From Cognatishimia activa (GTDB lineage: Bacteria > Pseudomonadota > Alphaproteobacteria > Rhodobacterales > Rhodobacteraceae): DNA of 64,000 nt. The stretch spans positions 913,651 through 977,650 of the forward strand of contig NZ_CYTO01000024.1 of assembly GCF_001458335.1 (NCBI RefSeq), written 5' to 3'. Each line of letters opens with the position of its first letter. The stretch's first letter is position 1. Made by a program: the position numbers and the translations under genes. The notes below the pieces were generated by a model, which searched no databases, was not told where the DNA came from, and saw only the letters and a program-made list of their open reading frames with translations. This document shows, piece by piece, positions 36,340 to 49,655 of this stretch.

Positions 36340-37134
36340 TTACTCTGCGTTGAACACAAACAATGTTTCGCCTTTGATTTTATAGTTGTTTATCAAAGAT
36401 TTGGCCGCGTCTGAAACAAGCCAAGCTTCAAGTTGGGTTGCAAGCTCTGATTTCACATGTGGGTGTTTGTCTGGATTCACAGGGAGGAACGCGTATTGGT
36501 TGAACAGAACCGGATCACCTGCATAAACCAGTGCCAGATCGCCCTTGTTGCCAAAGTTCAACCAACTTGCCCGATCCGCCATGATATAAGCGTTCAAACC
36601 CGCGGCTGTGTTGAGCGCGGCGCCCATGCCGGCCCCAACCGCGTTGTACCATGCCCCTTCGGGGGTAACCTCGGCGGCGGCCCACAAGCTCAACTCTTTC
36701 TTATGTGTCCCGCTGTCGTCCCCACGGCTTACAAAAGGCGCGGCACTTTCGGCGATGCGCTTTAACGCATCAGCCGCGCTGCTGGCATCCGCCAGATTCG
36801 CCCCATCATCGGAAGGTCCGATAAACACAAAATCATTGTACATAACTTCCCGGCGGTGCGTACCAGAGCCACCCGCAAGAAACGCGTCTTCGGCTTTGCG
36901 TGAATGAACCAGGATGGCATCCACGTCGCCCGCCTCGCCCAGCTTGATGGCTTGCCCAGTTCCCACGACCAATAGCTGAACCTCAATCCCAGTATCCTCT
37001 TTGATATGAGGAAGCAGAATGTCTGAAAGGCCCGAGTTGTGAAACGATGTGGTCACGGCAAGTTTCATCTCTTGTGCGACGGCCACTCCGGTTAGCAATG
37101 TCGACGTGATAGCGGCAAGGATGGTCATTTTCAT
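36340..37134 (-). CDS. tupA: Tungstate ABC transporter, periplasmic binding protein
   Basis: 264 residues with a signal peptide ending near residue 20 (VAVAQ). Anion-binding motifs typical of TupA are present: TTSFHNSGL near 28, VGTGQAI near 57, and SRGDDSGTHKKEL near 136. It captures tungstate (WO4) with high selectivity in the periplasm. It is the last gene of tupB-tupC-tupA, with a 4-bp overlap on tupC. Tungstate uptake next to a formate dehydrogenase suggests the enzyme uses a tungsten cofactor. Confidence 0.93.
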   Translation of the reverse strand: MKMTILAAITSTLLTGVAVAQEMKLAVTTSFHNSGLSDILLPHIKEDTGIEVQLLVVGTGQAIKLGEAGDVDAILVHSRKAEDAFLAGGSGTHRREVMYNDFVFIGPSDDGANLADASSAADALKRIAESAAPFVSRGDDSGTHKKELSLWAAAEVTPEGAWYNAVGAGMGAALNTAAGLNAYIMADRASWLNFGNKGDLALVYAGDPVLFNQYAFLPVNPDKHPHVKSELATQLEAWLVSDAAKSLINNYKIKGETLFVFNAE

Positions 37135-37844
37135 TCGACAATATCTCCATTTAGGAAAGCTTGGGCTTTTGCGGTTGATGCGCCGCCAAAAAAGGCCTCG
37201 GCAGAGCTGTGTTCATAGACGTTACCGTTCAATAGGAACAATACTTCAGTCGCCAAACGTCGCGCCTGCCCCATGTCATGGGTCGACATGATCAGGCGCG
37301 TTCCATGACCTGCGGCACGGTTTAGAATTTCCTCGATCTCACGGGTGGCGCGACCATCCAGAGACGCACAGGGCTCATCAAGAAACAGCAGCTTTGGCTT
37401 GGTAACAAGCGCCCGAGCAAGCGCAAGTTTCTGGCGCTCTCCACCGGATAAAAAGGGGGCGGGCCGATCGAGCATATCACCCAACCCGACATCGGCAGCC
37501 GCTTGTGCTGCAACGACCTTTGCCTTCACTCGGGATAGGCCTGACAAGCGTAATGGATAGGCAATATTGTCCAGGACCGACCGACGCATCATAATCGGTT
37601 GCTGAAAAACAAACGCCTGTGATACGCGGGCTTCTTCAGGCGAACAGGCCCAATCAATGCGGCCGCCTCCAAGCCGCGCAATGCCGTGCATCATGCGCAG
37701 AAGTGACGTTTTCCCCGCGCCATTGGGTCCAAGCACGACGGTCACCCCGTTGGCCTGCAGCTCAAGGTTCAAAGGACCAACAAGAGTCGTGCCAGCACGG
37801 CGCACCAATGCACCCTCAAGTTTGACAGGGAAAAGATTGCTCAC
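37131..37844 (-). CDS. tupC: Tungstate ABC transporter, ATP-binding protein
   Basis: 237 residues. Walker A GPNGAGKTSLL near 38, Q-loop FVFQQP, signature FLSGGERQKLALARAL near 130, and Walker B LLFLDEPCASLD. It powers tungstate import with TupB. 4-bp overlaps with tupB upstream and tupA downstream show a coupled operon. Confidence 0.92.
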   Translation of the reverse strand: MSNLFPVKLEGALVRRAGTTLVGPLNLELQANGVTVVLGPNGAGKTSLLRMMHGIARLGGGRIDWACSPEEARVSQAFVFQQPIMMRRSVLDNIAYPLRLSGLSRVKAKVVAAQAAADVGLGDMLDRPAPFLSGGERQKLALARALVTKPKLLFLDEPCASLDGRATREIEEILNRAAGHGTRLIMSTHDMGQARRLATEVLFLLNGNVYEHSSAEAFFGGASTAKAQAFLNGDIVE

Positions 37845-38542
37845 CAGCGACCTCCTCTCTCCGTGCGGCTGATAACGTGGATCGCAAGGTTGACAGCAAT
37901 GGCCATGGCAATCAGCACGAAACCCAAACCAAGGGCCAATGCGAACTCGCCTTTGCCTGTTTCAAGCGCAATCGCGGTGGTCAGAACACGCGTGTGATGG
38001 TCGATGTTTCCCCCGACAACCATGATCGCGCCGACCTCACCGATCGCACGGCCAAATCCGGCCAGCGATGCCGTCAGCAACGCACGCCGTCCGTCCCAAA
38101 GCAGCGCCTGAATGCGCTGGGTCTGGGTCGTATTCATAGAAATCAATAGGTCGTGATAGTCAGACCAAAGCTCGCGCAGTGCCTGATGTGCAATTGAAAC
38201 AATGAGCGGCACGATAATGATGACCTGCGCAATGATCATGGCCGTCGGCGTGAACAGTAACCCCAAGACACCAAACGGCCCAGAGCGGCTCAACATGACA
38301 TAGACAATCAGCCCGACCACAACGGGAGGCAAGCCCATCAGTGCATTCAGTACAGCAATCGTAAGCCGCCGCGCACGGAAACGACGTACGGCCAACAAAG
38401 CGCCAAGCGGAAGCGCAATTGCCGACGCAATTAATAGCGCTGTCAGGGTAACATATAGCGATCGCAGCGTGATCTCGACCAGATCCGCATCCAATGTGAT
38501 CAGCAACCAGAAAGCCTCAGTTATCCCGGCCCATATTTCCAA
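37841..38542 (-). CDS. tupB: Tungstate ABC transporter, permease
   Basis: 233 residues from TTG 38542, chosen because AAGGA sits eight bases upstream and homologues begin with EIWAGITEAFWLL; ATG 38590 would add 16 residues. About five or six membrane helices, and the EAA-type loop that contacts the ATPase (GFGRAIGEVGAIMVVGGN). It forms the tungstate channel. Upstream lies the divergent histidine kinase. Confidence 0.9.
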   Translation of the reverse strand: MEIWAGITEAFWLLITLDADLVEITLRSLYVTLTALLIASAIALPLGALLAVRRFRARRLTIAVLNALMGLPPVVVGLIVYVMLSRSGPFGVLGLLFTPTAMIIAQVIIIVPLIVSIAHQALRELWSDYHDLLISMNTTQTQRIQALLWDGRRALLTASLAGFGRAIGEVGAIMVVGGNIDHHTRVLTTAIALETGKGEFALALGLGFVLIAMAIAVNLAIHVISRTERGGRW

Positions 38543-38819
38543 GACATCATTCCTTAATGCGATTTTCAGGACCGAGGCCCGTATGGCCAAATTGTCCGAT
38601 CATCTGAAGACTGATCAAACACATCATCCGCAATGTAAAAACAGATTTCTTGGCAAAAAGTGGCAAACTGGACATTTTGACCATCCAAATTGCCAGGCTC
38701 GCTGAAATGCGCCCTAATTCGACCAAGCCTCGTGTTCACCACCGTCATTGGGCTGGTCTGCGTATCCGAGTCTGCTAAGCTCGTATCAGCTGCTATACTC
38801 TTGTCGGAAAGGCATAGAT

Positions 38820-40778
38820 TTGAATTCGGTCCGCCTGAAGCTTTTGGTGTTGGCATTGGCACCTCTTGGTATCCTGCTACCTTTGCTGATGCTGTTGGCG
38901 ATGGCTCGCTGGACAACAGATTATGACCAACTTCTCATATCGAAGGTCGACAGCGATTTACGCATTGCGGAGCAATACCTTGGACGTATCCTGACGGGTA
39001 CCGGCGCAGGTGTAGAAGCGATTGCTGACTCGCGTAGTTTTGAGACTGTTTTATTGAAATCAGACGACAGTCGCGCGGAATATCTTGAGCAGATGCGTAA
39101 GGCACAAGCACTGGATTTTCTTTATTTTCTGCCGGAAGGTGAAGCGCCTCCAACGCGCCGATGGCCGGTTATTCGGTCAGCAATGGAGGGTCAGAGGTCC
39201 TCTCAGATCGACATATTCTCGGCCGAGGATCTCGCGGCCTTCCCTTTGCTTGCAAACCGTGCCCGTATTGACTTGATCGAAACACAGGCCGCTGTTCCAA
39301 CGGATCGCACGGTCGAGGATCGCGGCATGGTCGTTCACACCGCAGCACCTGTGAATTTGCCGGATCATCGAGGCGTACTGGTCGGCGGGATCCTATTGAA
39401 TCGCAATCTAGACTTCATCGATACAATCAACGCACTGGTCTATCTTAATGCTGCAACCAATGGGGGCAGACAGGGCACCGCAACGCTGTTTCTTGAGGAC
39501 GTGCGCGTATCCACCAATGTAAGATTATTTGAGGATGTCCGCGCTCTTGGAACCCGTGTTTCAGCTGAAGTACGCGCCGCTGTATTGAACGAAGGGCAAA
39601 CATGGCTGAACCGTGCCTTTGTGGTGAACGATTGGTACATCTCTGGCTATTTACCATTGATCGACAGCTATGGTGAAAGGGTCGGCATGCTATATGTCGG
39701 TTTTCTGGAAGAGCCTTTTGCAAATGCAAAACGCGCCGCCTATTTGACGATGCTGGCATCAATGGCAACGGTTCTAATTCTGTCCGCGCCTTTATTTCTA
39801 AGAATGGCCCGCGGTATCTTTGCACCCCTCGAACAGATGACCCGCACCATGAAACGGGTGGAACGGGGTGATCTTGCCGCGCGCATTGGAGACGTCGGCC
39901 AGAAGGATGAAATCGGTCAGGTCGCCACCCATCTTGATACGCTCCTTGATCAGGTACAAGAACGTGACAGTGCGCTGCGCAGCTGGGCAGAAGAACTCAA
40001 CGATCGTGTCGACCGACGCACTGCTGAATTGCGGGCAGCCAAAGACAAATTGGAGGAGACGTTTCAGCAGCTGGTCACCTCGGAGAAACTGGCGTCCATC
40101 GGTGAAATCACTGCCGGCGTCGCCCATGAGATCAATAACCCAGTGGCTGTCATTCAAGGTAATGTTGACGTGATGCGACAGACCCTTGGCGCGGATGCTG
40201 AGGGGCTGAAGACCGAACTTGATCTTATCGATCGGCAGGTGCAACGGATCGACGGTATTGTTGGCAAATTGCTACAGTTTGCACGCCCGACCGACTATAC
40301 GGCAAGTGGCGGAGGTGTAGAATTGGCGCAGTTGGTCGAGGATTGCCGCGGCTTGATTGCCCATGTCCAGCCGCAGGAAAATGTTCGTGTCACCACCGAA
40401 TTTGCGCCTGCGCCGAACGCTGCAATCAGTGCCGGTGAAATGCAGCAAGTGGTGGTCAATTTGATGATAAACGCAGTTCAAGCGATGAATGGCGTAGGAG
40501 AGTTGGCGCTGACCATTCGGCCCGCCCAAAATGACGCACAAGATGGGGTTGAGCTGACGGTGGCCGATAGCGGGCCGGGGATCGACACCGACAACCTGAA
40601 CCAAGTGTTTGACCCATTTCATACCACGAAACTAGGTGAAGGCACTGGGCTGGGCCTCTCAATCAGTCAGACGTTGATCCGACAAGCCGGCGGAACGATT
40701 TCGGTCTCGAACCGGCCTCAAGGTGGGGCGATTTTTTCTGTTTGGCTGCCAGCTGCCGCACGAGATGTTGCGCAGTAA
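38820..40778 (+). CDS. Sensor histidine kinase with periplasmic Cache-like domain
   Basis: 652 residues from TTG 38820, which has GGAAAGG upstream; ATG 38748 is possible but adds 24 residues unlike a membrane start. First membrane helix about 7-29, periplasmic sensor about 30-310 of Cache type, second helix about 315-335. HAMP follows, then a coiled coil. The HisKA H-box (GVAHEINNPVAVIQGN) has its His near 436, and ATPase boxes N, G1 and GTGLGLS complete the kinase. It ends tail-to-tail 9 bp from the response regulator gene, its likely partner. The ligand, possibly formate or another small carboxylate, is not known. Confidence 0.88.
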   Translation: MNSVRLKLLVLALAPLGILLPLLMLLAMARWTTDYDQLLISKVDSDLRIAEQYLGRILTGTGAGVEAIADSRSFETVLLKSDDSRAEYLEQMRKAQALDFLYFLPEGEAPPTRRWPVIRSAMEGQRSSQIDIFSAEDLAAFPLLANRARIDLIETQAAVPTDRTVEDRGMVVHTAAPVNLPDHRGVLVGGILLNRNLDFIDTINALVYLNAATNGGRQGTATLFLEDVRVSTNVRLFEDVRALGTRVSAEVRAAVLNEGQTWLNRAFVVNDWYISGYLPLIDSYGERVGMLYVGFLEEPFANAKRAAYLTMLASMATVLILSAPLFLRMARGIFAPLEQMTRTMKRVERGDLAARIGDVGQKDEIGQVATHLDTLLDQVQERDSALRSWAEELNDRVDRRTAELRAAKDKLEETFQQLVTSEKLASIGEITAGVAHEINNPVAVIQGNVDVMRQTLGADAEGLKTELDLIDRQVQRIDGIVGKLLQFARPTDYTASGGGVELAQLVEDCRGLIAHVQPQENVRVTTEFAPAPNAAISAGEMQQVVVNLMINAVQAMNGVGELALTIRPAQNDAQDGVELTVADSGPGIDTDNLNQVFDPFHTTKLGEGTGLGLSISQTLIRQAGGTISVSNRPQGGAIFSVWLPAAARDVAQ

Positions 40779-40787
40779 CTCTGTCTG

Positions 40788-42122
40788 TCACATTCCCCAA
40801 GACGCGCATTTGCGATCAATGGTCTTGCGCGACACTCCCAAGCGGCGCGAAGCCTCGGCCCGATTGCCATCGCAGGCATCAAGAACATGTAGAATGTGGC
40901 GTTTGGTGACCAGATCAAGCGTTTCAATTGCCCGGTCTCCCGTCATATGCCCGCCTCCCGCAAACTCTTCTGGGAAAGCGCCAAGTATCACGGATCTCTC
41001 GATCATATTACGCAGCTCGCGGACATTGCCTGGCCAGTCGTAGCGGCTGATCTTCAAAAGCGTGTCGTCATCTAATTCCAAGCTCGGCAAGGCAAGCGTT
41101 TTTGAGAATTGATCCATGAATAGCGCCGCCAATTCGACGATATCCTCCGCCCGCTCCTTCAAAGGAGACATCGCGATGTCGACAACATTGATCCGGTGAT
41201 AAAGGTCCGCGCGAAAAGTGCCATCAGCCACCGCTGCTGAAAGATCAGCGTTTGTGGCAAAAAAGAACCGTAGATTCAATGGAATATCACGCTCTGCTCC
41301 GACTGGTCGGATCCGTTGATCTTCCAGAACGCGCAAAAGACCGGCCTGCATCTTCATTGGCATCTGCGCGATCTCGTCGAGGAACAATACGCCTCCGTCA
41401 GCCAGCAGAAACAGCCCATCCCGGCCTTGTCCGTCTACATTGATCTCGCCGAATAGGTCCTCGGCACATCTATCTTGCGATATAGCCGCACAATTTACCG
41501 CGACAAAGGGCTTGTCGGCGCGGTCCGACATGGCGTGCAATGTGCGCGCCGCGACTTCTTTGCCCGTGCCGGATGCCCCAGAGAACAGGACCGGAGTCGG
41601 CATTGGGGCCAACCGCGTCAACATTTCGCGCACATTGTTTATTGGGATTGAGTTCCCCAGTAAACGACTGCGTGCGGAGCCGCCTTCCACAGACAATTCA
41701 TGCTTTAAGAGCGAGTTGTCCCGGCGGAGGATCTTGCGATCAAGCGCACGCGCTACTGCATTCAAAATCTGGTTGGCGCGAAATGGTTTCAGTACAAAAT
41801 CGGCAACCCCTACGCGAAGCGCTTCGATCGCGGTCTCTAGGTCAGCGTAAGCCGTGATCAGAATCGCGTCCGAGAACAGACCTACTTTGCCCTGTTCCTG
41901 CAACCAATCCAGCCCGGTTTTTCCCGGCATGATGTTGTCCAGGATCACAAGGTCGAAATGGTTCCGATCCAGCGCGGCGGAAGCTTCAACTGATGATCCT
42001 GCCTGTTCAACCCGCTTGCAGCGGGGCGTCAGGATTTTGGTGAGAAAATGTCTCATGCCGGGTTCATCGTCGATCACAAGGATCGACGCGCCAGCAAGGC
42101 TTTCTCCGTATTCGTCACGCAT
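40788..42122 (-). CDS. NtrC-family response regulator lacking the GAFTGA loop
   Basis: 444 residues. REC domain with D18/D19, phospho-acceptor D62 (VILDNIMPG), T90 and K112. AAA+ domain with Walker A GASGTGKE, Walker B GGVLFLDEI and the RVLED region. Between LFGE and LLADGG, where sigma54 activators have GAFTGA, only a short NVDGQGRDG stretch remains. C-terminal Fis-type HTH (NRAEASRRLGVSRKTID). Like Rhodobacter NtrC and HupR, it may regulate sigma70-type promoters. It follows the 40-aa membrane protein by 9 bp and is probably the last gene of the fdh operon. Confidence 0.9.
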   Translation of the reverse strand: MRDEYGESLAGASILVIDDEPGMRHFLTKILTPRCKRVEQAGSSVEASAALDRNHFDLVILDNIMPGKTGLDWLQEQGKVGLFSDAILITAYADLETAIEALRVGVADFVLKPFRANQILNAVARALDRKILRRDNSLLKHELSVEGGSARSRLLGNSIPINNVREMLTRLAPMPTPVLFSGASGTGKEVAARTLHAMSDRADKPFVAVNCAAISQDRCAEDLFGEINVDGQGRDGLFLLADGGVLFLDEIAQMPMKMQAGLLRVLEDQRIRPVGAERDIPLNLRFFFATNADLSAAVADGTFRADLYHRINVVDIAMSPLKERAEDIVELAALFMDQFSKTLALPSLELDDDTLLKISRYDWPGNVRELRNMIERSVILGAFPEEFAGGGHMTGDRAIETLDLVTKRHILHVLDACDGNRAEASRRLGVSRKTIDRKCASWGM

Positions 42123-42131
42123 TGTCGGGCC

Positions 42132-42254
42132 TTAGTTTCTGACTGCTGCACCAGAATAGCGGTCAGACGAGGAATAGCCTAGTGTCCCAAGAATGTTGCT
42201 GGCACCGATGGCAATTACGATGATTGCCACAAAACCAAAAAGCATCGCTTTCAT
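42132..42254 (-). CDS. 40-residue single-span membrane protein of the fdh operon
   Basis: ATG 42254 to TAA 42132 encodes 40 residues: a short MKAMLFG start, one hydrophobic helix (about residues 5-24) and a polar tail rich in Ser, Asp and Arg. GGAG lies eight bases upstream of the ATG. It sits between the cytochrome b gene and the response regulator in the same direction. Too small for most gene finders. It could be a stabilising small subunit of the membrane-bound formate dehydrogenase; that is inference from position. Confidence 0.72.
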   Translation of the reverse strand: MKAMLFGFVAIIVIAIGASNILGTLGYSSSDRYSGAAVRN

Positions 42255-42349
42255 CTTTGTTTCTCCGTCATGGCATCCAGATGTGTGGTCGCCGAATGTT
42301 TCTGATGTTCACCGCAGCGCCCCAGGCTATGGAGGCAGCGGCGAACAGA

Positions 42350-43561
42350 TTACTCAGCAGCGGTTGGGGCACCTCTTCCGTCCCCTTCCCGCTCGGCGGC
42401 TTTGTATTCTTCCAGCCAGATCGAATGGTGTTGTTCAGCCCAAGCTTCATCCACTTCGCCGGTGCCCATTGCATCGTATGCTCCTTCCATACCAACAGAG
42501 CCGATATAGATATGCGCAAAAACAATGGCCATCAGAACGAAAGCAAGGATTGCGTGCCAGGCTTGCGCCAATTGCATTTCCTCTTGTGGCGCTAGTTGGA
42601 TGGGTAACTCGCCAAGACCGATCGCTTGCGGCAATCCCGTCGCGTTCAGAAGGTGGAACGACTTGGCAAAAAGCGGCAGGTCGAACGGAAACAGCAGCGA
42701 TATACCTGTAAGGGAAATTGAGCCACCAAACAGTATTACCGACCAAAAGATCATCTTCTAACCGGCGTTGAATTTCTTTGCCGGCGGGTGATCACCCGCG
42801 AAAAGAATGCCACCGCCCCTCCTCAACCAATGAAGGTCGGTCCGATTTGGGATGTTGTGAACAACCCACATCACAAAAACCATCACGAGACCAAGAATGA
42901 AGGCCCAGGAGACGTTGTTATGAATCCACTTGGACCAGACCAGCAGAAACGCATTTGCTTCCTTGCCAAAGAGAGGCACGAGAACCACGCGTCCGAAAAG
43001 GACCAACACTCCGGTAATCCCCAAAAGAATGAAAGACCCAGCCATAAGCCAGTGGCCGAACCGCTCGATCGCTTTGAAGCGGGTAACCGTTCGTCCAGCG
43101 CGCCCCTCGTCGATCTTGATCCGGCCTTTCAGCAGATAAAAGACCAAAAGAGCGGCCAATGTACCGACAAGCAGCCAGCCGCCATAGGTTCGAAGCGTGG
43201 TATCGCGGAATTCATGCCAGCGCATGCCGCCGTCCTGAACCATAACAGTCGCGACGTCCCCGCCAGCGGACACCTTCACATTCGCAGATCCATAGCGCAG
43301 AGCGCGCCAAGTTTCTGCGTCCGAGACTCCACCCAACGTGCCAAGCTGGGCAGCGATACCTGCCGCATTGTCGGGATCGCCTATTGCGTCGGACCTGAAG
43401 CTATCATCAAGTTTCTGCCCGGCCTGACGGGCCAGAATGTCGTCCAGCGTCTGCGCGCCGCCAGTAGCGGATCGGTCAATTGCCGGAGTGCCTTCTTCCT
43501 GCGCGAACCCAACCGAAGTCAGTGTCACCATCAGGACAAGTGCGAGTGCCATGCGCAGCAT
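42350..43561 (-). pseudogene. fdhI: Formate dehydrogenase cytochrome b (gamma) subunit interrupted by an in-frame TAG
   Basis: ATG 43561 has AAGGAGGAG upstream. The frame reads signal peptide (1-21), a periplasmic region, helices near 128-144, 168-190 and 216-236 with haem-type His at 170, 214 and 235, then TAG at 42760-42758 (codon 268). The next codons continue in the same frame with AAG ATG ATC TTT TGG to 42350, giving the last two helices with WHAIL and FAHIYIG histidines. The expected residue is Gln (CAG). The gamma subunit passes electrons from FdhB to quinone. This is a nonsense mutation, a sequencing error, or a gene split into two proteins (267 aa, and 134 aa from ATG 42754). Confidence 0.85.
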
Positions 43562-43638
43562 GGTCGCTCCTCCTTGAAACTAGTGTTAAAGTTGAGCGGC
43601 CCCAATACGGGGCCGCTCGACGTCGTGATCAAACGCGA

Positions 43639-44232
43639 TCAGCCGCCTTTGCGCTGGTAGGCCGTACCCCAACCCCAAGCGCCAGAACCGAAGCCACGGG
43701 CCACGACACGCTCGCGGTAGATGTCGGACACTTCGTCGCCATCGCCAGCCAGAAGCGCCTTGGTCGAACACATTTCGGCACAGATCGGCAATTTGCCCTC
43801 GGCCAGACGGTTGCGACCATATTTGGCGAACTCGGCTGTTGAATGGTTTTCCTCGGGGCCACCGGCACAGAAGGTACATTTGTCCATCTTTCCACGGCTT
43901 CCGAAGTTGCCAGCTTGCGGGTATTGCGGCGCACCGAAGGGGCACGCATAGAAGCAATAACCGCAGCCGATGCACAGGTCTTTCGAGTGCAGAACCACAC
44001 CATCATCGGTTTGATAAAAGCAATCGACCGGGCAAACGGCCATACAGGGCGCATCCGAACAATGCATACAGGCGACCGAGATCGATCGTTCGCCGGGCTT
44101 GCCATCTTCGATGGTCACAACACGGCGACGGTTGATGCCCCAGGGCACCTCGTGCTCGTTCTTACAAGCGGTCACACAGGCGTTGCACTCAATGCAGCGC
44201 TCGGCGTCACAGAGAAACTTTGCTCTTGCCAT
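43639..44232 (-). CDS. fdhB: Formate dehydrogenase iron-sulfur (beta) subunit
   Basis: 197 residues. Cys motifs for four [4Fe-4S] clusters are seen: CIECNACVTACKNEHEVPWG near 13, CMHCSDAPCMAVCP near 55, CIGCGYCFYACPFGAPQYP near 87, and CTFCAG...CAEMC further on. It carries electrons from the catalytic subunit to the cytochrome b. No signal peptide; it would be exported with FdhA. AAGGAGG precedes ATG 44232, 12 bp after fdhA. Confidence 0.94.
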   Translation of the reverse strand: MARAKFLCDAERCIECNACVTACKNEHEVPWGINRRRVVTIEDGKPGERSISVACMHCSDAPCMAVCPVDCFYQTDDGVVLHSKDLCIGCGYCFYACPFGAPQYPQAGNFGSRGKMDKCTFCAGGPEENHSTAEFAKYGRNRLAEGKLPICAEMCSTKALLAGDGDEVSDIYRERVVARGFGSGAWGWGTAYQRKGG

Positions 44233-44244
44233 TCTCTTTCCTCC

Positions 44245-47139
44245 TTACGCGGCCCAGATTTTGCACAGAGTTGTCTTGGTCTCTTGCATCTGGGTTACTG
44301 AGTCATAGCCATAGGTCTGCGCAGTATTGGTGCTTTCGCCCAACACATACGGATCGGCGCCGTCAGGATACTTGTGCCGAAGGTCTTCGCCCTGGAAATG
44401 GCCACCGAAGTGGAACGGCATGAAAGCAACGCCTTCGCCGACCCGCTCAGTCACCATCGCCATAACTTTGACTTTGCCACCTTCCGGGCCTTCGACCCAG
44501 ACTTGTTCCCCATCACGCAGGCCAAGATTGTTGGCGTCACGCGGGCTCACTTCAACAAACATGTCCTGCTGAAGCTCGGCCAGCCACGGATTCGATCGGG
44601 TTTCATCCCCACCTCCTTCGTATTCGACCAAGCGCCCCGAAGTCAGAATGATCGGATACTCTTTGGAGAAATCATTCTTTTGGATCGAGGCATAGAGCGT
44701 CGGCAAACGATAGTCGTGACGGTCCTCATAGGTCGGATAATCCGCAACGAGATCACGACGCGGCGTATATAGCGGCTCGCGGTGCAGCGGGATTGGATCT
44801 GGGAAGGTCCAAACCACAGCTCGGGCCTTGGCGTTACCAAAGGGTGCACATTCGTGCTTAATAGCGACCCTTTGTATGCCACCCGAAAGGTCGGTTTTCC
44901 AGTTGGTCTTCGGACCAGCTACGGCCTCGATCGAGGCACGTTCCTCATCCGTAAGATCACCATCCCAACCAAGATCCATCAGCATCTGCATCGTGAACTC
45001 CGGATATCCGTCCTGGATCTCAGAGTTTTTCGAATAGACGCCTTCGGCGAGCAGGTTGTCACCATCGCGTTCGACGCCAAAACGGGCGCGGAACGTCAGG
45101 CCGCCTTCGGACACGGGTTTGGACATGTCATAAAGGTTCGGCGTTCCGGGGTGACCCATCTCCGCCGTTCCCCAGCACGGCCATGGCAGGCCGTAATAGT
45201 CACCATCGGCTGGACCACCCACAGCTTTCAGGGTGGTGCGGTCGAATGTGTGCTGGTTTTCCATGTGCAGCTTGATCCGTTCAGGACTTTGACCTGTATA
45301 ACCGATCGTCCAAAGACCACTGTTGAATTCACGCGTGATGCTTTCAACATTGGGGGTGACATCGTCTTCCATCTCGATGTTGCGGAAAAAGCGATCCGAC
45401 CAACCGAATTTCTTGGCAAACATCCCCATGATGACATGGTCTGGCTTGCTTTCGAACAATGGATCGACGACCTTTTCTCGCCATTGAAGCGAACGGTTCG
45501 AAGCCGTGACAGAACCATGAGTTTCGAACTGCGTCGCAGCCGGAAGCAAATACACGCCGTCGGTACGATCATGCAGAACAGCCGAAACAGTTGGATAGGG
45601 ATCGATCACGACCAGCATATCCAGCATCTCCATGGCAGTCTTCATTTCTGCCTGACGGGTTTGCGAGTTCGGTGCGTGTCCCCACAGAACCATGGCGCGT
45701 ACCTTGTTGGGATTGTCCATGTTCTCTGGATCTTCCAGAACGCCGTCGATCCAGCGACTGACAGGGATCCCTTTTAGGTTCTGCAGGCTCTTTTCCTTGC
45801 CGTCTGCGCCGGTCACTTTGGCAAATTGACCGGCCAGCCAATCGCCATCTTCGCCCCATACACGTGCCCAGTGGGCCCATGCACCACCCGAAAGACCGTA
45901 ATAGCCCGGCAGGGTGTGGCTGAGAACGCCAAGGTCGGTTGCGCCTTGCACATTGTCGTGGCCGCGGAAGATGTTGGTTCCGCCACCCTCGGTGCCCATG
46001 TTCCCCAGAGCGAGCTGAAGGACGCAGTAGGCGCGGGTGTTGTTGTTGCCGTTGGTGTGCTGCGTGCCACCCATACACCAAATCACGGTGCCGGGGCGGT
46101 TATTGGCCAGCGTATGCGCCACGCGGCGAAGCTGTTTACCGGGGGTGCCGGTCACGCGCTCGACTTCTTCAGGCGTCCACTTTTTCACTTCATCACGGAT
46201 CTGGTCCATGCCCCATACACGGGTGCGAATGAACTCTTTGTCTTCCCAACCGTTTTCGAAGATGTGCCACAAAATACCCCAGACCAGGGCGACGTCCGTA
46301 CCTGGACGGAAGCGAACATATTCATCAGCATGGGCGGCCGTGCGCGTAAAGCGCGGGTCGCAGACGATCAGCGGAGCGTTGTTTTCTTCTTTGGCTTTTA
46401 ACACGTGCAGAAGCGACACAGGGTGTGCCTCAGCCGGGTTGCCGCCAATAATGAAGATCGCGCGGCTGTTGTGAATGTCGTTGTAGCTGTTGGTCATGGC
46501 GCCATAGCCCCATGTGTTCGCCACACCGGCAACAGTCGTGGAGTGACAGATACGCGCTTGGTGATCCACGTTGTTCGTGCCCCAATAGGCCGCAAACTTT
46601 CGGAACAGATATGCCTGTTCATTCGAGTGTTTTGCCGAACCCAACCAATAAACGCTATCTGGTCCGCTTTCTTCGCGAATGTTCATCATGCCGTCGCCGA
46701 TCTCGTTGATCGCTTGCTCCCAGCTGATGCGTTTCCACTCGCCACCCTCTTTCTTCATCGGATACTTCAAGCGGCGTTCGCCATGTGCGTGTTCGCGTAC
46801 TGACGCGCCTTTTGCACAATGAGCTCCAAGGTTGAAGGGGCTGTCATAACCGGGTTCCTGACCGGTCCAGACACCATTTTGAACTTCGGCTACAACGGTG
46901 CACCCGACCGAGCAGTGCGTGCAGACCGATTTCAAGGTCTCGACTGCGCCGTCAGCAGCCGTAGCAGCTGTAGCTTGCGTCACCGTTCCTCCGGTGGCGC
47001 TGATTGCGGCAAGACCACCAATGGCCAGGCCGCTGCCACGCAGAAATGCGCGGCGGTCGACAGATTTCTCTGCGACATCGGAAAGGATACTTGTCCGCTG
47101 GGGGCGTCTCGCAACCCCGTTGGTCTTTTTCCTCAACAT
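44245..47139 (-). CDS. fdhA: Formate dehydrogenase catalytic (alpha) subunit, W/Mo-bis-MGD
   Basis: 964 residues. A TAT signal with RRAFLRGSG lies near residues 29-36 after an unusually long basic N-terminus. The [4Fe-4S] site is CTHCSVGC near 73-80 with a further Cys at 108. The metal-ligand position in DHQARICHS is C198, so this is a Cys rather than selenocysteine enzyme, followed by the catalytic His. It oxidises formate to CO2 in the periplasm. The nearby tungstate transporter favours tungsten. GGGAGG precedes the start. Confidence 0.95.
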   Translation of the reverse strand: MLRKKTNGVARRPQRTSILSDVAEKSVDRRAFLRGSGLAIGGLAAISATGGTVTQATAATAADGAVETLKSVCTHCSVGCTVVAEVQNGVWTGQEPGYDSPFNLGAHCAKGASVREHAHGERRLKYPMKKEGGEWKRISWEQAINEIGDGMMNIREESGPDSVYWLGSAKHSNEQAYLFRKFAAYWGTNNVDHQARICHSTTVAGVANTWGYGAMTNSYNDIHNSRAIFIIGGNPAEAHPVSLLHVLKAKEENNAPLIVCDPRFTRTAAHADEYVRFRPGTDVALVWGILWHIFENGWEDKEFIRTRVWGMDQIRDEVKKWTPEEVERVTGTPGKQLRRVAHTLANNRPGTVIWCMGGTQHTNGNNNTRAYCVLQLALGNMGTEGGGTNIFRGHDNVQGATDLGVLSHTLPGYYGLSGGAWAHWARVWGEDGDWLAGQFAKVTGADGKEKSLQNLKGIPVSRWIDGVLEDPENMDNPNKVRAMVLWGHAPNSQTRQAEMKTAMEMLDMLVVIDPYPTVSAVLHDRTDGVYLLPAATQFETHGSVTASNRSLQWREKVVDPLFESKPDHVIMGMFAKKFGWSDRFFRNIEMEDDVTPNVESITREFNSGLWTIGYTGQSPERIKLHMENQHTFDRTTLKAVGGPADGDYYGLPWPCWGTAEMGHPGTPNLYDMSKPVSEGGLTFRARFGVERDGDNLLAEGVYSKNSEIQDGYPEFTMQMLMDLGWDGDLTDEERASIEAVAGPKTNWKTDLSGGIQRVAIKHECAPFGNAKARAVVWTFPDPIPLHREPLYTPRRDLVADYPTYEDRHDYRLPTLYASIQKNDFSKEYPIILTSGRLVEYEGGGDETRSNPWLAELQQDMFVEVSPRDANNLGLRDGEQVWVEGPEGGKVKVMAMVTERVGEGVAFMPFHFGGHFQGEDLRHKYPDGADPYVLGESTNTAQTYGYDSVTQMQETKTTLCKIWAA

Positions 47140-47244
47140 GTTAACCTCCCTTGCTACCCCACTGGGGCTGGCTGGGTTGATGTGTAACCTTCGGCAGTCG
47201 GGCCAATCGCAACCAGTCGTCGAAGGAGCGGATCACTTGGCCTG

Positions 47245-47439
47245 TCAGAAACGGGCCGACGCGAAATAGGCGCGGGTCTGCGCCGTGTCCTGCAATTTGG
47301 TCGACTGCAGGTCAGGCTCGGCGGCTGCTTCAGCCTCTTGCCCGCTAGCCATGACGGTGACTGCAGCCGCAGGGGCTGCTGTTCCGGCCAATTTCAGAAA
47401 GTCGCGGCGGCTTTTCGCTTCCTTGTCCTTCTGGGTCAT
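47245..47439 (-). CDS. Formate-dehydrogenase-region TAT-signal small protein
   Basis: 64 residues. The N-terminus has SRRDFLKLAG at about 10-19 and an Ala-rich hydrophobic stretch, a full TAT signal, then a short polar tail. It resembles the family of small TAT targets found before fdhA in many proteobacteria. Role unproven; it may help assembly or export of the FdhAB complex. GAGGAGG precedes the ATG. Confidence 0.88.
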   Translation of the reverse strand: MTQKDKEAKSRRDFLKLAGTAAPAAAVTVMASGQEAEAAAEPDLQSTKLQDTAQTRAYFASARF

Positions 47440-47488
47440 GAGAGTTCCTCCTCTCTGTTGGTGGCGGTTGCCCGCCGGGTCTTGCGGA

Positions 47489-48112
47489 TCACTCCGCGCT
47501 CATCCGAAAGCCCTCGGCCTCGATCTCCATGAACACGCGGCCAACCTGACCGACAGCGGCATAGAGAACCGAGTTTTTTGCAGCTTCCAAATCTGTGAAA
47601 AAGTGACCCGCCCACGGGCCGATATGGGTGTTGAAGAATGCTTTCTGGTCGGCAACATCACGCGCCTGCCCAAAGCGGCCCACGATCATCGCGCCCATCA
47701 TTTCCATCAGCGACGCGATGTTGTCTTCCGGTTCATAGATGTTTTCGGCACGTGTTAGCCCACGCGCTGCCATGTCCTGACGGAGCTTCGCTAGGGGTTT
47801 TTCATTTAGAAAACCGGTTAGATAATAGCTGGCATAGGGCAATAACTCGCCCCGACCCAAGCCGATAAACAGCTTGTTGAATTCACTCTCAACACCCTCA
47901 GCTTTTGACAATTTGGCGATCTTCGCCAGCGCATTTATCGCCACACCCAATGGCGTGTCATCGCCGGTAAGCCCTGCCGTCATCGTTAAGGTGTCGGCGT
48001 TGGCGGGTGCCGACAGAAGAAGTCCAAGATAGTTGTAGAGGTCCGCGCGTAGACGATCTTCTTCAGTCACACGGATGTCTTCAGCTGCACTCATATTCAT
48101 TTCCTTACTCAT
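47489..48112 (-). CDS. TorD/DmsD-family chaperone for formate dehydrogenase
   Basis: 207 residues, all-helical. The family pattern EFNKLFIGLGRGELLPYASYYLTG lies near 75-98 and EPEDNIASLMEMMGAM near 123. These chaperones bind the TAT signal of the catalytic subunit and hold it until the cofactor is inserted. ATG 48112 overlaps the DUF3306 stop by 4 bp; ATG 48094 has a better ribosome site (AAGGA) and may be the real start. Confidence 0.88.
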   Translation of the reverse strand: MSKEMNMSAAEDIRVTEEDRLRADLYNYLGLLLSAPANADTLTMTAGLTGDDTPLGVAINALAKIAKLSKAEGVESEFNKLFIGLGRGELLPYASYYLTGFLNEKPLAKLRQDMAARGLTRAENIYEPEDNIASLMEMMGAMIVGRFGQARDVADQKAFFNTHIGPWAGHFFTDLEAAKNSVLYAAVGQVGRVFMEIEAEGFRMSAE

Positions 48113-48765
48113 GCGCGCCCGGCGTCTTTGCGCGCGCCCTCTGGTGTCTCAAATGCAAAGCGCATTCGGCGTGAGGGCACGAACGCGTCAGGGTCGTCTG
48201 CAATATCAATGGATTGGGGCAAGTCACCGGTATCTATTGTGGCTTCGGCGACAAGCACTGGTGACTTATCTTCGATGTCTTGTATGTCGGTTTCTGTTTC
48301 GGGGGCGGATCGTTCCGGAACGGGGTCATCTTCTAAGGTGTCGATGTCATTGGCTGCGGCAGCTTCTTCCGCGCGGCGCGCCAGTTCGAGCACGTGTTCG
48401 GTCATTCCCTTACCAACCTGATAGGCGGTCTGCAGGTTCTCGACCACGCAATTGGCGTCGGTGAAATCATCACCGTAGTCGACCAATCCGTCGACATTGG
48501 CCAAAATCGGATTCAAACGCCACAAACGGCGCAAAGCACGCGTGCGAATGCGGGCGGGAACCGCTTCACTGAGGAACGCTTTGAAATCGTCACCTTCTTC
48601 AAGAGTGTCAGGGTCGGGTAAATCGAGCTCAGCCAGAATGTCTTCGTCTGTACGTTCAGCCATTGAGGCTTCACGTTCGGCTTGTGCTTCGGCCTCAGCA
48701 AGGCGCGTTGTTTCTTGGTCTTCAGCCAGAACAGCAGCTTTACGACGGGCCCAGAAATCGCTCAT
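48109..48765 (-). CDS. DUF3306 protein of the formate dehydrogenase locus
   Basis: 218 residues. The family core SDFWARRKAAVLAE at the start and RRLWRLNPILANVDGLVDYGDDFTD near 78-102 are clear. The rest is acidic and probably disordered. The family occurs almost only in fdh operons, next to DUF3305 and TorD, and is thought to aid maturation; the mechanism is unknown. 4-bp overlaps with both neighbours. Confidence 0.88.
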   Translation of the reverse strand: MSDFWARRKAAVLAEDQETTRLAEAEAQAEREASMAERTDEDILAELDLPDPDTLEEGDDFKAFLSEAVPARIRTRALRRLWRLNPILANVDGLVDYGDDFTDANCVVENLQTAYQVGKGMTEHVLELARRAEEAAAANDIDTLEDDPVPERSAPETETDIQDIEDKSPVLVAEATIDTGDLPQSIDIADDPDAFVPSRRMRFAFETPEGARKDAGRA

Positions 48766-49331
48766 TGCAAACGCTCCTTCTTGGCTTGAACAGGCGAGCG
48801 GTACACATCGGCCAATTGCGAGATCCGAGCATCCCCGATCCCATCTTCCACAAGCCCAATGTCCTTCTTGTCACGCTTGCGTTTCTTGAACACTTCTTCG
48901 CGGTGATGAGCGTCAACGAAATCACTGACCCACATCCGAACGCTTGGCGGCATGGCGATCTTTTCGACGATATCCTCGCCATTATCCGCGTAATCTTGCG
49001 CCTCGTAGGGCGAGGCGGTCAGCAGCACCACATCCAAAGGACGGGACTCATCGCCGGTTTCGCGCAGGACTGTGTAAAGGGATGGGGTCACGGCATTCAG
49101 TCCGTGCAGATAGGCTTCGGTATCCGCGCCGTGCAGTTCCAGCGTTGGGGTGGCGACATGATAAAATGTCATTTCGCCCTCTTGGCGCAAAACCCGCCAA
49201 TCTGCTTGGCCTGCACCAGGCAAGACATCCACAACCTTCCAAACCCAAACAGCCCAACGGGTCACACCCGGCATGCGCCGCATGACGACGCCAACTGGCA
49301 TCATGTCAAATCTGTTCGGATCATGGATCAT
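48762..49331 (-). CDS. DUF3305 protein of the formate dehydrogenase locus
   Basis: 189 residues from ATG 49331. The conserved region is PVGVVMRRMPGVTRWAVWVW near residues 11-30, then FYHVATPTLELHGADTEAY and PPSVRMWVSDFVDAHH. Start is uncertain: ATG 49331 has GGGAGG eleven bases upstream, while longer forms to 49409 are open. It is the first gene of the minus-strand fdh operon and always accompanies DUF3306 in such loci. Function unknown. Confidence 0.82.
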   Translation of the reverse strand: MIHDPNRFDMMPVGVVMRRMPGVTRWAVWVWKVVDVLPGAGQADWRVLRQEGEMTFYHVATPTLELHGADTEAYLHGLNAVTPSLYTVLRETGDESRPLDVVLLTASPYEAQDYADNGEDIVEKIAMPPSVRMWVSDFVDAHHREEVFKKRKRDKKDIGLVEDGIGDARISQLADVYRSPVQAKKERLQ

Positions 49332-49655
49332 GATCTGAATGTCCTCCCTCACAATACCCTGCTGCATGCTTGACCACCCGCAAACGTCTATTTGCGGCGT
49401 GACGGCCATTCAGGACAAATTGTCGACGCTCTGGCGAGCGGGAGGACTGCATGGGTCGAATTGTCTATTCCGACCAAATTAATCGGATTTTTTGAATACG
49501 TCCCAAACAGCGAATCATTGTCGAATTTTCGACGTCTGAGGTCGGGCCTACATCGAAAAAAACCAGTTTACGCCCGTTCGAAATCATGGCTAGTTGAACC
49601 CCGGTCGACGCCCCAAAAAGGGGCTAAATTGCTCGACAGTAACGCGGGGAGAAAC
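49332..49655. promoter_or_regulatory. Divergent fdh promoter region with repeated ATTGTCGA-type sites
   Basis: Four similar sites: AAATTGTCGACG (49417-49428), GTCGAATTGTC (49455-49465), ATTGTCGAATTTTCGACG (49517-49534, containing the palindrome GTCGAATTTTCGAC) and AAATTGCTCGACAG (49627-49639). They lie between the two divergent fdh operons and are good candidates for binding of the operon's response regulator. A related AAATTGTCCGA is at 38589-38599 in the tupB-kinase gap. No sigma54 promoter with correct GG-N10-GC spacing was found. Confidence 0.55.

Follow-up and report, generated by a model that had tools for sequence, protein, structure and literature searches.

An in-frame amber codon in the formate dehydrogenase gamma subunit gene of Cognatishimia activa

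Organisation of the cluster and of the gamma gene

The window, a stretch of 64,000 nucleotides from contig NZ_CYTO01000024.1 of Cognatishimia activa, carries a formate dehydrogenase gene cluster. An intact alpha-type subunit of 964 residues (44245..47139, minus strand) and an intact FDH3 beta subunit (43639..44232, minus strand) are encoded upstream of, and adjoining, the gamma gene on the same strand. The beta subunit scores 345.8 bits against NF038355 (cut-off 240), and the best family for the alpha subunit is TIGR01591, at 489.9 bits, under its cut-off of 666.25. The minus strand of the cluster also encodes a TorD/DmsD-like chaperone (PF02613; 47489..48112), a DUF3306 protein (48109..48765) and a DUF3305 protein (48762..49409). 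Downstream of gamma lie an intact NtrC-like response regulator (40788..42122, minus strand), which adjoins gamma in the three nearest related loci (L015, L016 and L017) as well, a sensor histidine kinase gene, also intact, that converges on that of the regulator (38748..40778, plus strand) and ABC transporter genes. The transporter includes a PBP_like_2 binding protein and may be one for tungstate or molybdate. This order of transporter, kinase and regulator, formate dehydrogenase, chaperone and DUF3305/3306 genes (36340-49409) is kept in Aliiroseovarius sp. F20344 (L015) and PrR006 (L016), while the transporter genes have no match in the stretch of L017 that was compared.

The gamma gene encodes a cytochrome b subunit of 403 residues, and its frame is interrupted by a stop codon. 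Translation of 43561-42350 on the minus strand gives an ATG that opens a run of 267 codons, a TAG at 42758-42760, 135 further codons and a TAA (42350-42352). The TAG takes the place of codon 268 and there is no frame shift on either side. The N-terminal part (residues 1-267, 42761..43561, minus strand) comprises a signal-like N terminus, an extension, hydrophobic stretches at 125-148, 168-202 and 212-239, and His170 and His214. The rest of the frame (residues 269-403, 42353..42757, minus strand) holds stretches at 270-293 and 329-360, together with His336 and His350. The stop thus follows the third hydrophobic stretch and precedes the fourth, in a count that leaves out the signal-like N terminus. 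An ATG at 42752-42754 (minus strand), the second codon after the TAG, is a possible restart site.

In a profile search against TIGR01583 (a model of 204 positions), the N-terminal half matches positions 2-107 and the C-terminal half positions 110-202. Since the two halves match in succession, they are one gene with an internal stop rather than two adjacent ones. Each half alone falls under the curated cut-off of 115.85 (58.2 bits for the N-terminal and 58 bits for the C-terminal half); the whole frame, in which the search tool reads through the TAG, is over it at 134.7 bits. This is the sole TIGR01583 match in the 3.36-Mb genome, and it is flagged '1 TAG'. A second gamma copy that might replace the broken one was sought and none was found in the genome with TIGR01583; a protein search with the C-terminal half gave a single match in this genome, gamma itself. 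The description in the initial annotation, of an amber codon without a frame shift, between the third and fourth membrane helices, with an ATG two codons on and intact sequence to either side, agrees with the translation, the hydrophobic stretches and the conservation described below.

Codon 268 and constraint among relatives

Codon 268 was compared across 93 related loci, 13 from one search and 80 that were the best 80 of 396 relatives from another. All 93 carry a sense codon at this position: CAA in 50, CAG in 40 and GAA in three, that is Gln in 90 and Glu in three. The neighbouring residues Asn265, Gly267 and Lys269 are identical in every locus. L015, L016 and L017 all read CAG, within the motif FNAGQKMIFW; the gamma proteins of L015 and L016 are 88-89% identical to that of the window and differ from it in having sense CAG where it has TAG. 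In a wider survey, gamma was matched at E ≤ 1e-60 in 164 of 394 family genomes, the window's own included, some of which may overlap with the 93 loci. Of these 164, 150 were listed, and none of the 149 other matches among the matches listed contains an internal stop. Within the relatives examined, the stop at codon 268 is, on these alignments, peculiar to the window's genome; neither a conserved split nor frequent decay of gamma in the family was seen among the 93 loci or the 149 other listed matches. A literature search returned, among the matches listed and in the portions of the sources available, nothing evidently concerning the lesion.

The gamma sequence shows little sign of decay on either side of the stop. 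No near-invariant column is lost in either half (22 of 22 retained across residues 159-267, 23 of 23 across residues 269-402). Codon changes private to the window were counted only at codons identical in L015, L016 and L017, which yields small numbers and favours conserved codons; synonymous and non-synonymous changes so counted stand at 14 to 1 in gamma after the stop and 19 to 1 before it; the ratio is 86 to 2 for the alpha gene and 14 to 0 for the beta gene. These private changes, taken against L015, L016 and L017, give no sign that selection is relaxed downstream of the TAG. Private amino-acid changes after the stop number two in the window, two in L015 and three in L016; in the N-terminal half they number eight, five and three, respectively. 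Pairwise dN/dS for the N-terminal half is 0.057 and 0.076 in pairs that include the window against 0.033 for L015-L016, at synonymous sites near saturation, and for the C-terminal half, in the pairs that allowed the calculation, it is 0.061 for the window and L016 against 0.030 for L015-L016, with dS saturated for some pairs. The slight excess of dN/dS and of amino-acid changes in the window's gamma cannot be told from noise in comparisons of this kind.

The internal stop is confined to gamma; the other main open reading frames of the cluster match long open frames of L015, L016 and L017, and the further stops in some cluster alignments lie upstream of the starts of the open reading frames or in other frames. 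The substitution pattern indicates that constraint on gamma has held for most of the window's branch. If the lesion is real, it must, by the 14 to 1 ratio of private changes after the stop and the intact state of the neighbouring genes compared, be very young. The initial annotation had derived the TAG from CAG by a single change, had called for relatives to be inspected for CAG and had offered a recent lesion as one reading. The relatives do carry it, in 40 of the 93 loci and in all three of the nearest; the recent age is supported, as the stop occurs in no examined relative and the downstream half is little decayed.

Predicted consequences for the gamma product

The E. coli protein FdnI (PDB 1kqf chain C) belongs to the same family as the window's gamma across both halves, and was used to place the stop and the haem ligands, with aligned positions counted by eye. 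The window's protein has an N-terminal extension of about 150 residues over FdnI, also present in L015, L016 and L017, and is set apart from FdnI by the in-frame stop. In the alignment the TAG falls at FdnI Gln113, in an N-A-G-Q-K motif, and His170, His214, His336 and His350 align, by the same count, with FdnI His18, His57, His155 and His169. We take these four FdnI residues to be the haem ligands, presumably paired as 18 with 169 and 57 with 155. Each of the 93 loci has His at all four aligned positions. The stop has two of the histidines (His170 and His214) on its N-terminal side and the other two (His336 and His350) on its C-terminal side, and the four are consequently not in one chain, provided that the stop is real and is not read through.

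Translation would end after residue 267, giving a product without the last two membrane helices. Truncated gamma would keep one histidine of each haem pair and lose the other. As each half holds two of the four aligned histidines, the truncated product should be inactive, with haem binding and quinone reduction predicted to be lost. Electrons from formate could then not reach quinone from the alpha and beta subunits, which are themselves intact.

An alternative is that the two halves are made separately. The initial annotation had raised this, with the parts assembling as a split cytochrome. For such a cytochrome to be functional, the ribosome would stop at the TAG and begin anew at the ATG of the second codon past it, and the two membrane pieces would come together. 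The ATG begins three bases past the TAG, which makes coupled re-initiation physically possible, the stop lies between hydrophobic stretches, and both halves are otherwise intact. Since the ATG follows so soon after the stop, some re-initiation at 42752-42754 could occur and make the second half. Nevertheless the split is found in one genome only, being absent from the 93 loci and the other listed matches, and the TAG stands where every one of these loci has Gln or Glu, next to invariant positions. The ATG is an internal Met in L015, L016 and L017, and no good Shine-Dalgarno sequence at a useful distance before it was found by inspection. The residue at this position is most often Leu (31 of 93 loci), followed by Met (24), Val (18) and Ile (14); with Met in 24 loci, and internal in the three nearest, the ATG did not arise for restart. 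The proposal of separately made and assembling halves thus found no positive support, and a functional split cytochrome appears very improbable. Its stronger form, a newly arisen two-piece cytochrome b in which the piece with helices I-III and the piece with helices IV-V bind two haems across the break, is if anything harder still to credit; were it true, it would be a gene split caught as it happens.

Read-through of the TAG, programmed or tolerated, by a suppressor tRNA or recoding, would restore the full-length protein. The frame is open on both sides, Gln is usual at codon 268 and the genome contains a near-cognate tRNA-Gln (ttg anticodon). Against this, ARAGORN read the anticodons of all 39 Rfam tRNA matches, a list that itself lacks Tyr, Asn, Ile and Ala-TGC, and none of them is CTA. 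A pattern search for a CTA loop followed by GGTTCRA, which would miss a tRNA with another T-arm, gave 13 places and no CTA tRNA among them (39 places for the reversed control pattern). A similar GTA pattern recovered the tRNA-Tyr missing from the Rfam search, so the pattern can work and the Rfam list is incomplete. No amber-suppressor tRNA was found among the 39 matches and the CTA pattern places, in what is an incomplete survey. In addition, TAG ends three of 33 open reading frames of the window selected by hand as plausible genes, uvrA among them, and none of the 93 compared loci uses TAG at codon 268. Read-through likewise found no positive support, and is given the slightest credence of the readings considered here. 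As a separate observation on the tRNA genes, each end of a 189309-base contig of this genome bears a tRNA-Glu gene of identical score and anticodon (G000:C10:109-180 and 189237-189308); the contig may terminate in a repeat or be circular.

Origin of the stop and standing of the cluster

We consider it probable that a recent nonsense change of a single codon gave rise to the TAG, in what is otherwise an ordinary gamma subunit of an FDH3-type formate dehydrogenase. This would place the TAG in the organism's DNA rather than in the assembly only. Among known cases, the nearest counterparts are ordinary young bacterial pseudogenes with a single nonsense change. The window's gamma resembles them in having one stop, unshared by the examined relatives, in a frame that is otherwise intact and conserved, and no feature that distinguishes it from them was found. 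What speaks against a nonsense allele is that the sequence has almost no decay beyond codon 268 and nothing independent marks gamma as dead; the single, small pointer in that direction is the excess of private amino-acid changes and of pairwise dN/dS in the N-terminal half.

The same features would be expected from a sequencing or assembly error, or from a minority variant turned consensus, with gamma intact in the organism; an assembly error was also among the readings of the initial annotation. Codon 268 is the sole lesion seen in the compared cluster, whose other main genes have no internal stop; the C-terminal half is under clear constraint; and a lone substitution is what a base-calling error or minority variant would look like. 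However, the contig that carries the TAG is 1.02 Mb long, its nearer end is some 67 kb away from the codon, and the assembly is 99.95% complete; a well-covered assembly seldom contains substitution errors. We regard an error as a real but rather unlikely explanation, and favour the nonsense allele.

The distribution of the cluster bears on whether such a loss would matter. Of the nine genomes of the genus that were compared, the window's own alone has an FDH3 beta match above the family's cut-off. In the other eight, the best match of the alpha protein is only 34-37% identical and the C-terminal half of gamma has no match. The distribution is patchy and the FDH3 cluster looks accessory. A further formate dehydrogenase alpha subunit is encoded on contig C8 of the genome (746 bits against a cut-off of 666.25), with a NuoG/HoxU-like N terminus, which we take to be as in NAD-linked enzymes. 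As the cluster looks accessory and this second alpha subunit is encoded, loss of gamma is probably tolerated.

Several observations touch on the wider history of these genes. With its gene order kept in Aliiroseovarius sp. F20344 and PrR006 but its beta family over the cut-off in one of the nine genus genomes compared, the cluster seems to have been gained or lost. Among 72,556 plasmid records, 69 have gamma-related sequence at 60-80% identity (47 from Pseudosulfitobacter and 14 from Sulfitobacter), and nine of the ten listed plasmid matches bear the annotation formate dehydrogenase subunit gamma; plasmid copies are a possible route to the patchy distribution. A congener has a distant relative of the alpha subunit (G007:C10:145788-146627; 26% identity) whose open frame of 967 residues contains a single in-frame TGA; it may be a pseudogene or something other.

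For annotation, codon 268 needs to be checked before a working quinone-linked formate dehydrogenase is ascribed to this strain. If the TAG is real, the locus would be a clean case in which the membrane anchor of an accessory respiratory enzyme is the first part to be lost, at a stage when the catalytic subunits are still intact.
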